Assembly (NCBI RefSeq): GCF_003569045.1
Contig: NZ_BFCB01000002.1
Coordinates: 496,001 to 560,000 of the forward strand
DNA: 64,000 nt
Reading direction: 5' to 3'
Source of the DNA: Aggregatilinea lenta
GTDB taxonomy: Bacteria; Chloroflexota; Anaerolineae; Aggregatilineales; Aggregatilineaceae
Part shown: one piece after another, positions 10,915 to 13,986 of the stretch
Numbering within the stretch: the stretch's first letter is position 1
Layout of the letters: every line of letters begins with the position of its first letter
The notes under the pieces: generated by a model
Databases searched by the model: none
Told to the model about the DNA's origin: nothing
The model's input: the letters and a program-made list of their open reading frames with translations, nothing else
Translations under genes and position numbers: made by a program

Positions 10915-12627
10915 TTATCCTTCGTTTTGCGCCCAGGCCACCACGTCCGCCAGCGGGATCACGCGGCGATCCGCTTCGGCGCGGCGCTTGACCTCCACAC
11001 CGCCCTGCTCCGCCGCCTTCTTGCTGACCGTCACGCGCAGCGGCACGCCGATCAGGTCCGCGTCCGCGAACTTCACGCCCGGCGAGTCGGCACGGTCATC
11101 GAGCAGCACGGATAGGCCCGCCGCTTCCAGGTCGTGCACGACCTGCGCCGCGAGATCGGCGTACTGCGGTTCTTTGCCCAGCACGACCACGTGCACGGCG
11201 AACGGCGCGACGCTGGCGGGCCACACGATGCCGTGCTCGTCGTGGTGCGATTCGATGATCGCGGCCATCAGCCGTTCCAGCCCGATCCCGTAGCTGCCCA
11301 TAATCACCGGCAGCGAGACGCCGCGCTCGTCCAGGTAGGTCACGTTCAGCGCGTCGCTGTAGCGCGTCCCGATCTTGAAGCAGTGGCCCAATTCTATCGC
11401 GCGATCCAGGTGCAGCGATCCGCCGTCGCAGCGCGGGCACGGCGCGCCCTCGTACACCAGCGCGATGTCCTCCACGCGCGCCGGATCGAAGTCGCGCGGG
11501 ACGTTGATCCCGGTGAAGTGGTAACCCGCTTCGTTGGCCCCGGCGGCGAAGTTCGCGCCCGCCCGCACCGACAGATCCGCGATGACGGTCACCTCGCGCG
11601 TCAGGCCGATCGGGCTGGCGTAACCCGGCTCCGCGCCCACGGCCCGGATCTCGTCGTCGGTCGCCGCGCGCAGCGTGCCACCGCCCAGCGCGCGCAGCAG
11701 CTTGGCCTCGTTCACATCCAGGTCGCCGCGAATGACGACGAACACAAATTCGTCTTCCGTATCGCCGGGGCGCTCGTCCACGAAAAACACCGCCTTGAGC
11801 GTCTGCGATGCCGGGATGCCCAGAAAATCCGCAAGCTGCTGGATCGTCTTGCACTCCGGCGTAGCGACCTTCCGTACCGGGTCGAGCGCGACCGGTTCCG
11901 GCGGCAGGTGCGCGAACACCGCCGCTTCGTCGCTGGCCGCGTAGTCGCAGCGGTCGCAGCGCACGAGTGCCGACTCACCCTGCGCATGGGCCAGCATATA
12001 CTCGGTGCTGGCGCGCCCGCCCATCGCGCCGCTGTCGGCCTCGACCGGCACGACGTCCAGCCCGACGCGGGCGAAAATCCGGTCGTACGCGGCCAGGATG
12101 CGCTCGTAGACGCGATCCAGCCCCTCGACCGTGGCGTCCAGCGAGTAGGCGTCCTTCATGCTGAACTCGCGCAGCCGGATGAGCCCACCGCGCGGGCGCG
12201 GCTCGTTGCGGTACTTGGTGTGGATCTGGTACACGAGCTGCGGCAGGTGCTTGTAGCTCTCGACTTCGCGCGCGGCCAGCAGCGCGACGAGTTCCTCGCC
12301 GGTCGGCGCGAGCACGAAGTCGCGGCCCGCCTCGCTCGTAAAGCCCTGGAGCACGCCATCGAACGCGTACAACCGCCCGCTCGCCGCCCACACCTCCGCA
12401 GGCTGCACCACCGGCAGCACGATCTCCTGTGCGCCGAGCGCTTCCATCTCCTCGCGCATAATCGCTTCGATGCGGCGCATCACGCGGCGGCCCAGGGGCA
12501 GCACGGCGTAGCTCCCGGCAGCGACAGGGCGCACCAGCCCGGCCCGGATCGCCAACTGGTGGCTGGGCAGATCCGCGTCGGACGGCGCATCGCGCAGGGT
12601 GCGGGTGAACAGGTCGGACAGTCGCAT
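10915..12627 (-). CDS. proS: Prolyl-tRNA synthetase, bacterial type
   Basis: Class II synthetase that charges tRNA-Pro. The protein is 570 aa, the bacterial (ProS type 1) architecture with an INS editing domain between motifs 2 and 3 (VATPECKTIQQLADFLGIP onward, about residues 240-370), which removes mis-charged Ala-tRNA-Pro. Motif 2 contains YRNEPRPRGGLIRLREFSMKD as two abutting pieces, motif 3 contains GSYGIGLERLMAA, and the C-terminal anticodon-binding domain ends in the VVAWAQNEG tail. The ATG at 12627 is preceded by GAGGAGG at good spacing. The leader holds a promoter, a mini-ORF with three proline codons and an intrinsic terminator, which suggests attenuation. Confidence 0.97.
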   Translation of the reverse strand: MRLSDLFTRTLRDAPSDADLPSHQLAIRAGLVRPVAAGSYAVLPLGRRVMRRIEAIMREEMEALGAQEIVLPVVQPAEVWAASGRLYAFDGVLQGFTSEAGRDFVLAPTGEELVALLAAREVESYKHLPQLVYQIHTKYRNEPRPRGGLIRLREFSMKDAYSLDATVEGLDRVYERILAAYDRIFARVGLDVVPVEADSGAMGGRASTEYMLAHAQGESALVRCDRCDYAASDEAAVFAHLPPEPVALDPVRKVATPECKTIQQLADFLGIPASQTLKAVFFVDERPGDTEDEFVFVVIRGDLDVNEAKLLRALGGGTLRAATDDEIRAVGAEPGYASPIGLTREVTVIADLSVRAGANFAAGANEAGYHFTGINVPRDFDPARVEDIALVYEGAPCPRCDGGSLHLDRAIELGHCFKIGTRYSDALNVTYLDERGVSLPVIMGSYGIGLERLMAAIIESHHDEHGIVWPASVAPFAVHVVVLGKEPQYADLAAQVVHDLEAAGLSVLLDDRADSPGVKFADADLIGVPLRVTVSKKAAEQGGVEVKRRAEADRRVIPLADVVAWAQNEG

Positions 12628-12670
12628 AGGAGCCTCCTCGGCAAAACAAATGCACAGGCGCGGGACAAAC

Positions 12671-12706
12671 AAAAACCGGCCCCGGAACAGATCCGGGAGC
12701 CGGTGA
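12671..12706 (-). terminator. Intrinsic terminator in the proS leader (attenuator)
   Basis: On the minus strand ACCGGC-T-CCCGGA pairs with TCCGGG-GCCGGT (12 bp with one bulged T), loop TCTGT, followed by TTTTTG. It sits 44 nt upstream of the proS start and downstream of a sigma70 promoter, so it must be read through for proS expression. TCACCG at 12701-12706 can pair with CGGTGA at 12741-12746, an alternative that would break this stem. Confidence 0.8.
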
Positions 12707-12740
12707 ACAAGCGTCGATTTACGCAGCCGTCAGCCAGGCG

Positions 12741-12818
12741 TCACCGCACGGACCATCTCCGAAGAGCAGGTCTGTTATGGCAGCCAGTAGGGACGGGAAG
12801 CGAGTAGTTTGCGTTCAT
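12741..12818 (-). CDS. Candidate leader peptide upstream of proS (25 aa)
   Basis: An ATG at 12818, one or two nt from the predicted transcription start, opens a 25-codon frame ending in TGA at 12741-12743. Proline codons are 8 (CCC), 10 (CCT) and 17 (CCT). The stop codon is part of CGGTGA, which can pair with the 5' arm of the downstream terminator. That arrangement fits ribosome-mediated attenuation by prolyl-tRNA supply. Three Pro in 25 is not extreme, so a chance frame is possible. An RNA-only T-box-like element is the alternative. Confidence 0.4.
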   Translation of the reverse strand: MNANYSLPVPTGCHNRPALRRWSVR

Positions 12819-12825
12819 GTGCACC

Positions 12826-12854
12826 ATCGTATGCCAGATCGTGCGCCGTGTCAA
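12826..12854 (-). promoter_or_regulatory. Promoter of proS
   Basis: A near-consensus sigma70 site: TTGACA (12849-12854), exactly 17 nt, TACGAT (12826-12831). Transcription would start near 12819 and give a leader of about 190 nt. It overlaps the region upstream of the divergent gap gene. Confidence 0.8.
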
Positions 12855-12987
12855 CGGGCTTGTCTCTACCGTACGGCATCAGAAGCGCGCCGCCTCTGTG
12901 CACGGCGGCCCCCTCGGCGTTAAAATCACCGATGCGAACAACTGCACCCTATCCTCGTCCGGTTCTGAAACCATAAGGATGGACACC

Positions 12988-13986
12988 ATGGGCAAAATCG
13001 CAATTCACGGTTTTGGGCGCATTGGCCGCTCGGCCATGAAAGCCGCTCTCAAGCGAGGGCTGTTCGTTCCCGCCTCGATTTCGGATATCAAAGACCTGCC
13101 GACCCTCGCCGCGCTGTTCGAAGTGGACTCGAACTATGGCCGCTGGCCGCAGCCCGTCTCCGCCGAAGGCTCGACGATGATCGTCGGGGACGACAAGATC
13201 CCGTACTTCGAGACCAGCCAATCCCTGCCGGACTGGGGCGCGCTGGGCGTCGAGCTGGTGATCGACTGCACGGGCCGCGCCACCCGCCGCGCGGGCGCGC
13301 AGGCTCACCTGGATCGCGGAGCAAAGCGCGTTCTGGTCAGCGCCGCCAGCAAGTCGCGCGAGGACGCCGACGCGTTCCTGCTGCCGGGAATCAATCTCGA
13401 CCAGTACGATCCGGACAAACACTTCATCGTGAGCATGGCAAGCTGCACGACCAACGCGCTGGCTCCGGTGGTCAAGGTGCTGCTCGAAAATGTGGGCCTC
13501 AAATCGGGCTTGTTCACGACGGTGCACGCCTACACCAACACGCAGTCGCTGACCGACCAACCGATGGGCGACCGGCGCGACTCGTGGGCGGCGGCGGAGA
13601 ACATCATCCCGTCGTCGTCGGGCGCGGCCAAAGCGCTGAAGTTCATCTGGCCCGATCTCAACATGACGGGCAAGGCATATCGCGTCCCGGTGCGCACGGG
13701 CAGCATCGTCGAGGCGACCGTGGTGACGGATCGGGCCACCTCCGCGGAGGAACTCAACGACATGTTCCGCAAGGCCGCGACCAGCGCGCCGCTGCAAGGC
13801 GTCATGAGCGTACTCGAAGGCGAATGGGCCTCATCGCGCATCGTGGGCGATGAACATTCGTCCATCATCGACCTGCCGCTGACGCAGGTCATGGGCGGGA
13901 CGCTCGTCACGGTCGCGGCGTGGTACGACAACGAGATGGGCTATTCGACCCGCCTCGCGGACACCGCCGCGTTCCTGGTCAAATAG
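12988..13986 (+). CDS. gap: Glyceraldehyde-3-phosphate dehydrogenase
   Basis: Glycolytic enzyme of 332 aa converting glyceraldehyde-3-phosphate to 1,3-bisphosphoglycerate with NAD(P). The Rossmann motif HGFGRIGR is at residues 7-14, the catalytic Cys153 is in SMASCTTNALAP and His180 in TTVHAYTN. The NEMGYSTRL motif lies near the end. The ATG at 12988 is chosen because AAGGA stands 8 nt upstream and the protein then starts like all GAPDHs; a frame extended to 12817 has no support. It is divergent from proS and stands alone on the plus strand. No clear promoter was identified. Confidence 0.96.
   Translation: MGKIAIHGFGRIGRSAMKAALKRGLFVPASISDIKDLPTLAALFEVDSNYGRWPQPVSAEGSTMIVGDDKIPYFETSQSLPDWGALGVELVIDCTGRATRRAGAQAHLDRGAKRVLVSAASKSREDADAFLLPGINLDQYDPDKHFIVSMASCTTNALAPVVKVLLENVGLKSGLFTTVHAYTNTQSLTDQPMGDRRDSWAAAENIIPSSSGAAKALKFIWPDLNMTGKAYRVPVRTGSIVEATVVTDRATSAEELNDMFRKAATSAPLQGVMSVLEGEWASSRIVGDEHSSIIDLPLTQVMGGTLVTVAAWYDNEMGYSTRLADTAAFLVK

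Follow-up and report, generated by a model that had tools for sequence, protein, structure and literature searches.

A probable ribosome-mediated attenuator with proline codons upstream of the bacterial-type prolyl-tRNA synthetase gene in Aggregatilinea lenta and related Anaerolineae

Results

The proS gene in the window, i.e., the 64 kb stretch of DNA that was analysed, is very probably under the control of a ribosome-mediated transcription attenuator of the classical kind, with charged tRNA-Pro as the signal. This would be a textbook mechanism in a little-studied phylum and not a T-box, and more of the enzyme is probably made when charged proline tRNA runs short.

Layout of the proS leader

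All elements of the leader lie on the minus strand. The gene proS (10915-12627) encodes a bacterial-type (family II) prolyl-tRNA synthetase (ProRS) of 570 amino acids (TIGR00409, 553 bits, cut-off 306.7). It starts at 12627 with an ATG (12627-12625) and is preceded by the Shine-Dalgarno sequence AGGAGG (12633-12638). The original prediction of a promoter, a mini-ORF beginning close behind it and a strong terminator between 12671 and 12704 was reproduced throughout. The promoter TTGACA-17-TACGAT (12854-12826) is of the sigma-70 type and matches the consensus in 10 of 12 positions, with the -35 hexamer TTGACA at 12849-12854 and the -10 hexamer TACGAT at 12826-12831. The latter is separated by 7 nt from the ATG, starting at 12818, of the leader ORF MNANYSLPVPTGCHNRPALRRWSVR* (12741-12818). 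This ORF has 25 codons, of which codons 8, 10 and 17 encode proline, and ends with a TGA (12743-12741). The terminator consists of a hairpin of -23.8 kcal/mol (12704-12675), followed by a T-tract at 12675-12671 that was recognized in the sequence and in the hairpin scan. Because only 7 nt separate the -10 hexamer and the ATG, the transcript would probably start at or beside the leader ATG, and the ORF is probably leaderless.

Both strands of the window were scanned for the full combination of a promoter, an ATG 5-9 nt past the -10 hexamer, an ORF of 12-38 codons and a terminator within 70 nt. One match, the proS leader, was obtained, and 40 dinucleotide-preserving shuffles of the 64 kb gave 0 matches to the same combination. 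The overall fold of the window leader as free RNA is nothing unusual (z -1.42). A DNA search of its own genome gave no second copy of the leader, and matches besides the leader itself were at most 27 bases long. An ORF that by eye resembles glyceraldehyde-3-phosphate dehydrogenase (12988-13986, plus strand) is divergent from proS, and the promoter of the attenuator sits in the spacer common to both.

Within the leader the following regions were assigned. The codons CCC GTC CCT (codons 8-10, 12789-12797), recognized in the leader alignment, form a P-x-P motif and are the putative regulatory site. They open region 1, the protector (12778-12797, co-variation and fold), which would pair with region 2 in the absence of a ribosome. 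An inner hairpin of the ORF, GACC...GGUC (12751-12772, co-variation and fold), is the origin of the T-box-like stretch AUGGUCCG. Region 2 (12735-12755, co-variation) comprises the last four codons, the TGA stop and 6 nt, and represents the 5' strand of the predicted antiterminator. Region 3 (12688-12706, co-variation and fold) is the 5' arm of the terminator and the alternative partner of region 2, and region 4 (12675-12686, co-variation and RNAalifold) is the 3' arm of the terminator.

From this arrangement we infer the following course of events, from the start of transcription and the translation of the ORF to stalling and read-through. Transcription would start at or next to the ATG of the 25-codon ORF and the leading ribosome would translate at once. 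With ample prolyl-tRNA the ribosome would reach the stop codon and cover region 2, the 3:4 terminator would form and proS would be off. When prolyl-tRNA is scarce, the ribosome would stall at CCC-GTC-CCT, about 15 codons before the stop, and cover region 1. This would leave region 2 available for pairing with region 3, so that the terminator would fail and proS would be transcribed. Without translation, region 1 would pair with region 2 and the terminator would form.

Conservation in related genomes

Of the 15 genomes of the host's family (f1) that carry family-II proS, 13 have the same layout upstream of this gene and two, G013 and G007, lack it. Among the other families of the same order (f2, f3, f4, f6 and f7) this layout is also present in two f4 and two f6 genomes. 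It is absent in G020 and G027 of f4, and no such leader was seen, by a P.P screen and reading, at ten f2, three f7 and three f3 loci. Four loci of other Anaerolineae (L059, L062, L063 and L068) carry it as well. The 21 leaders come from 104 proS upstream regions, some loci appearing twice, that were screened for P.P mini-ORFs. L052 and L054 (the same as L015 and L020), L023, L025 and L136 were first recognized by eye, and L146, which was found later by a covariance model, stands outside this set.

The comparison with relatives bears out the predicted mini-ORF and its Pro codons. In the alignment of the 21 leaders the reading frame of the ORF is maintained and the gaps are in frame. P-x-P occupies codons 8-10, or the corresponding position, in 17/21; in L052, L054, L023 and L059 one of the two prolines is kept. 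The third predicted proline, codon 17 of the window, is generally not conserved. That only two Pro codons of the leader ORF are conserved is a point against an attenuator. The second Pro column reads CCT in 19/21 leaders and TCT in the other two; CCT is otherwise rare, as of 147 Pro codons counted in five window genes 10 are CCT. The stretch PxP-S-S is kept over a wide distance, as is the CCT codon.

The ORF frame is open in all 21 leaders, and the +1 and +2 frames are each stopped within the span in 20/21. Differences at codon positions 1, 2 and 3 are 0.32, 0.30 and 0.38 across the leaders. Such a weak signal at the peptide level is as expected if codons and RNA pairing outweigh the peptide. 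The distance from the -10 box to the ATG is 6-9 nt in all 17 leaders from f1, f4 and f6, a spacing as in a leaderless transcript. The four other leaders have an SD-like element (gaggtgat, gagga, aggatgga) within a 5' stretch. A hairpin with a T-rich tail follows the ORF stop at a distance of 27-54 nt in 21/21 leaders.

A covariance model of the leaders was used for a class-wide search and matched 70 of 396 genomes at E 0.01, many of the matches covering the terminator end only. Besides the matches in the window's own genome (G000) and in G005, eight places (L144-L151) were inspected.

Alternative RNA structures and co-variation

To follow the alternative pairings across species a swap test was applied, which compares how well a region pairs with its own partner and with the corresponding partner from other species (20,000 permutations). 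It was run on 20 leaders, as L053 is a near-copy of L051 and was dropped, and region 1 comprised the Pro codons plus the four to five codons that follow them. Cognate pairing exceeded swapped pairing for 1:2 (p=0.0019), 2:3 (p=0.0003), the terminator 3:4 (p=0.00005) and the inner hairpin (p=0.004), where the limits of the regions were picked after the folds had been viewed and the test on all 20 leaders ignores relatedness. The controls showed no co-variation (1:3, p=0.67; 1:4, p=0.22; inner 5' strand with region 3, p=0.42). When region 2 was shifted to the 3' side, p was 0.086. The 12 f1 leaders alone gave p=0.004 for 1:2, p=0.04 for 2:3 and p=0.00005 for 3:4. For the eight non-f1 leaders 2:3 (p=0.008) and 3:4 (p=0.0006) were significant, but 1:2 was not (p=0.15). 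In the window itself the evidence for 2:3 is weak, its own partner ranking eighth of 12 within f1.

By eye, the antiterminator of f1 is formed by GUCCG/CGGAC and GAUGCC/GGCGUU, with variants, and that of the window by GGUCC/GGAUC and CGGUGA/UCACCG. The original prediction had named the pairing of CGGTGA (12746-12741) with TCACCG (12706-12701); the positions hold, while the exact letters are specific to the window and the relatives keep the topology with other letters. The helix includes the UAG stop itself in the four outer leaders, where the codons before UAG, UAG and GCUG pair with CAGC, CU and the following letters of the arm. At the level of sequence, the comparison demonstrates that the parts of the predicted attenuator are present and conserved and that 1:2, 2:3 and 3:4 co-vary, and the attenuator model is thereby strengthened by a mini-ORF, Pro codons, stop position, terminator and alternative pairings that are conserved and co-vary.

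Folding of the window RNA agreed with the predicted switch in part. With a ribosome placed on the second proline, 0.77 of the terminator 5' arm is paired to upstream RNA, and with a ribosome on the stop codon 0.00. However, the equilibrium fold of the full-length RNA keeps the terminator (P 0.95-0.98) in all four ribosome states and does not switch. Among the leaders folded at equilibrium with ribosome masks only L057 and L063 switch and L068 does so partly; in this run the Pro codons of L059 and L054 were misplaced, and the later fold and swap tests used the right ones. As the equilibrium fold keeps the terminator in most leaders, the attenuator model needs co-transcriptional folding. Folding energies of the 21 leaders compared to shuffles are weak as well (mean z -0.86 for 1:2 and +0.38 for sequestration of the arm). 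RNAalifold on the 21 leaders recovered only the terminator, with 9 pairs, 5 of them with two-sided changes, because the alternative helices slide in register, and this sliding is the reason why the species-swap test was used.

Two prolyl-tRNA synthetases

The window's genome carries both ProRS families, the family-I gene (TIGR00408) being located at G000:C2:1260134-1261558. A search upstream of this gene gave no T-box at E 0.1, and a Pro-rich mini-ORF accompanied by a promoter and a terminator is likewise absent; the family-I enzyme is apparently unregulated. Across the order (154 genomes), 138 genomes have family I (TIGR00408) above the cut-off and 65 have family II (TIGR00409). The leader is present in 17 genomes of the order. 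Family I is above the cut-off in 15 of these, G003 has a fragment of 363 bits and G011 has none. Therefore, the regulated gene is usually a second, optional ProRS, and the attenuator would provide an inducible enzyme alongside that of family I.

On a ProRS tree of 50 rows, presence of the leader needs 5 changes compared to 15.4 for shuffled labels, and 0 of 500 shuffles was as low. Thus, the leader mostly follows the descent of the gene, with losses. The leader L146 (G412) resembles L062/L145 (G496), both from f59, yet the ProRS proteins belong to different clades, as if the ProRS gene had been exchanged behind a retained leader.

Sister attenuators in Anaerolineae

With the covariance model built from the proS leaders, similar arrangements were found at other genes of the class. 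In f16, the family-I proS is preceded by a Pro-rich leader ORF and a terminator in 3/3 genomes (L172, L173 and L174, with the peptides PLPCPIP, PLPCPIP and NPPCPVEP, respectively). In f55, an ORF with three to nine consecutive Gln codons and then a terminator precedes glnA at 10 of the 15 loci examined (L175, L177-L182, L184, L185 and L189), where the start of the L179 ORF is doubtful and L190-L192 lie outside the 15. The swap test on the glnA leaders gave p=0.003 for 2:3 and p=0.0005 for 3:4, with p=0.15 for the control 2:4. These leaders are candidate Gln-codon attenuators.

Upstream of lysW/lysX in f40 Lys-rich leader ORFs are present at 5/5 loci (L193-L197). Two tandem Lys ORFs, each with a terminator, were found at at least four of the five loci, the first ORF of L194 being cut by the slice, and these leaders are candidate tandem Lys attenuators. 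The ORFs downstream of the sister leaders match GlnA and LysX, as fragments, and the f40 downstream gene is, by its features, presumably lysW.

In a further case, at L149:1501-1634 and L151 (G404 and G251), Pro-rich ORFs (RLPIPPAP and RLPSPPCPCP) with a terminator precede an ORF that by eye resembles a metallophosphoesterase, and not proS.

At family-I proS, glnA and lysW the codons fit the product each time, which is the strongest outside support for a sensor of tRNA charging. It seems moderately likely that Anaerolineae possess a class-wide, modular family of attenuators beside their T-boxes, in which the sensing codons are swapped (Pro with either ProRS, Gln with glnA, tandem Lys with lysW) and the antiterminator spanning the stop codon and the terminator are kept, and which makes the second ProRS of the window inducible.

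Alternative explanations

The original prediction had also offered a T-box riboswitch, in which uncharged tRNA-Pro would bind the leader RNA directly and stabilize an antiterminator, the ORF being incidental. The T-box-like stretch AUGGUCCGUGCGG lies immediately upstream of the terminator, and the same genome does use this device: an RF00230 search gave eight matches (L001-L008) at E 0.001 or better, three of them above the cut-off. The ORFs downstream of six match pheS, leuS, thrS, serS, trpE and a TrpB-like enzyme, partly as fragments below the whole-protein cut-off. L001 and L002 have no clear amino-acid gene directly after them. However, none of the eight lies at the proS leader, and a cmscan of 11800-13200 that allowed E values up to 5 gave no T-box either. 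The RNA ahead of the T-box-like stretch is only about 65 nt long, which is too short for the canonical Stem I of a T-box. The conserved UGGN of T-boxes is not kept either, TGG being present in 7/13 f1 leaders, and a T-box would not require the conservation of ORF, Pro codons and stop position. The T-box reading of AUGGUCCG was dropped, as this stretch is the 3' strand of the co-varying inner hairpin together with the antiterminator strand. Taken together, a T-box at proS has next to no probability, and the host cell would control at least four synthetase genes by T-boxes and proS by another device. Two sensors of tRNA charging, the T-box and the translating ribosome, could thus be compared within one cell.

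Two other readings do without a sensor of tRNA charging. A translation-independent RNA switch or a protein-binding leader, with an ORF that is open by chance only, would fit the weak codon-position signal and strongly conserved RNA letters such as CCTAGCAGC. It is very improbable in view of a start codon that lies at a fixed distance from the promoter or has an SD-like stretch, and of a frame that is open in every leader, with in-frame gaps and with Pro codons ahead of a ProRS gene. In addition, the leaders that were searched match no Rfam family, the only match in the relatives being a tRNA gene beside L147. An arrest peptide or a sensor of slow proline incorporation, in which PxPSS itself would stall the ribosome and the signal would be EF-P activity or an unknown ligand instead of tRNA charging, is unlikely, though it would account for the wide conservation of PxP-S-S, and proline is slow to incorporate. 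It also has a published counterpart in the control of mgtA by EF-P (PMC6460261). An arrest peptide would not explain why the synonymous choice CCT is kept in nearly all leaders, and the SS codons double as pairing sequence. The peptide of the family-I proS leaders is wholly different (PLPCPIP) and retains proline, and the cognate runs of Gln and Lys in the sister leaders point to sensing of codons and tRNA. A ribosome-mediated attenuator responding to charged tRNA-Pro is thus preferred.

Discussion

Attenuators of synthetase genes are known from pheST in gamma-proteobacteria and from trpS and leuS in Streptomyces (PMC1262725). The proS leader shares with them cognate codons in a leader ORF, an antiterminator that competes with the terminator, and a synthetase gene downstream, and differs in the Pro codons, the target proS, the Anaerolineae host and the presence of only two prolines in a fixed P-x-P. 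A 2010 survey of attenuators of synthetase operons is cited in PMC4833913. The T-box (RF00230) likewise senses tRNA charging at synthetase genes, but has no match in the proS leader.

In Streptomyces lividans leader peptides have been described upstream of leuS, trpS, alaS and thrS, several of them leaderless (PMC8079986), and the trpL transcript of Sinorhizobium meliloti begins at the ATG of the leader peptide (PMC7298713). Like S. lividans leuS, trpS and thrS and S. meliloti trpL, the proS leader would have its transcript start at the ATG. Those starts were mapped by RNA-seq or 5' ends, whereas here the start is deduced from promoter spacing. The accessible parts of these two papers contain no proS example among the leaderless leader peptides.

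Proline codons are used in the Salmonella leaders mgtL and mgtP of mgtA and mgtCBR (PMC3641672). These also have a Pro-rich leader ORF, and ribosomes that stall there when prolyl-tRNA is low promote transcription of the coding region (PMC3641672). Their targets are Mg2+ transport and virulence genes and not a ProRS, and the likeness is one of description.

As far as the accessible parts of the literature indicate, amino-acid attenuators occur mainly in Proteobacteria and Actinobacteria (PMC3766115, PMC4833913, PMC1262725, PMC9413887), and His attenuators have been proposed in a few lineages of Firmicutes (PMC9413887). In the openly accessible literature we found no leader-peptide attenuator of proS, glnA or Chloroflexota, although an earlier mention is possible, and no Gln- or Lys-codon attenuators of Anaerolineae. 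The mechanism is therefore a known one, including leaderless and synthetase examples, and the proS target and the phylum appear to be new. Chloroflexota would be a further phylum with amino-acid attenuators, next to those in which such leaders have been described.
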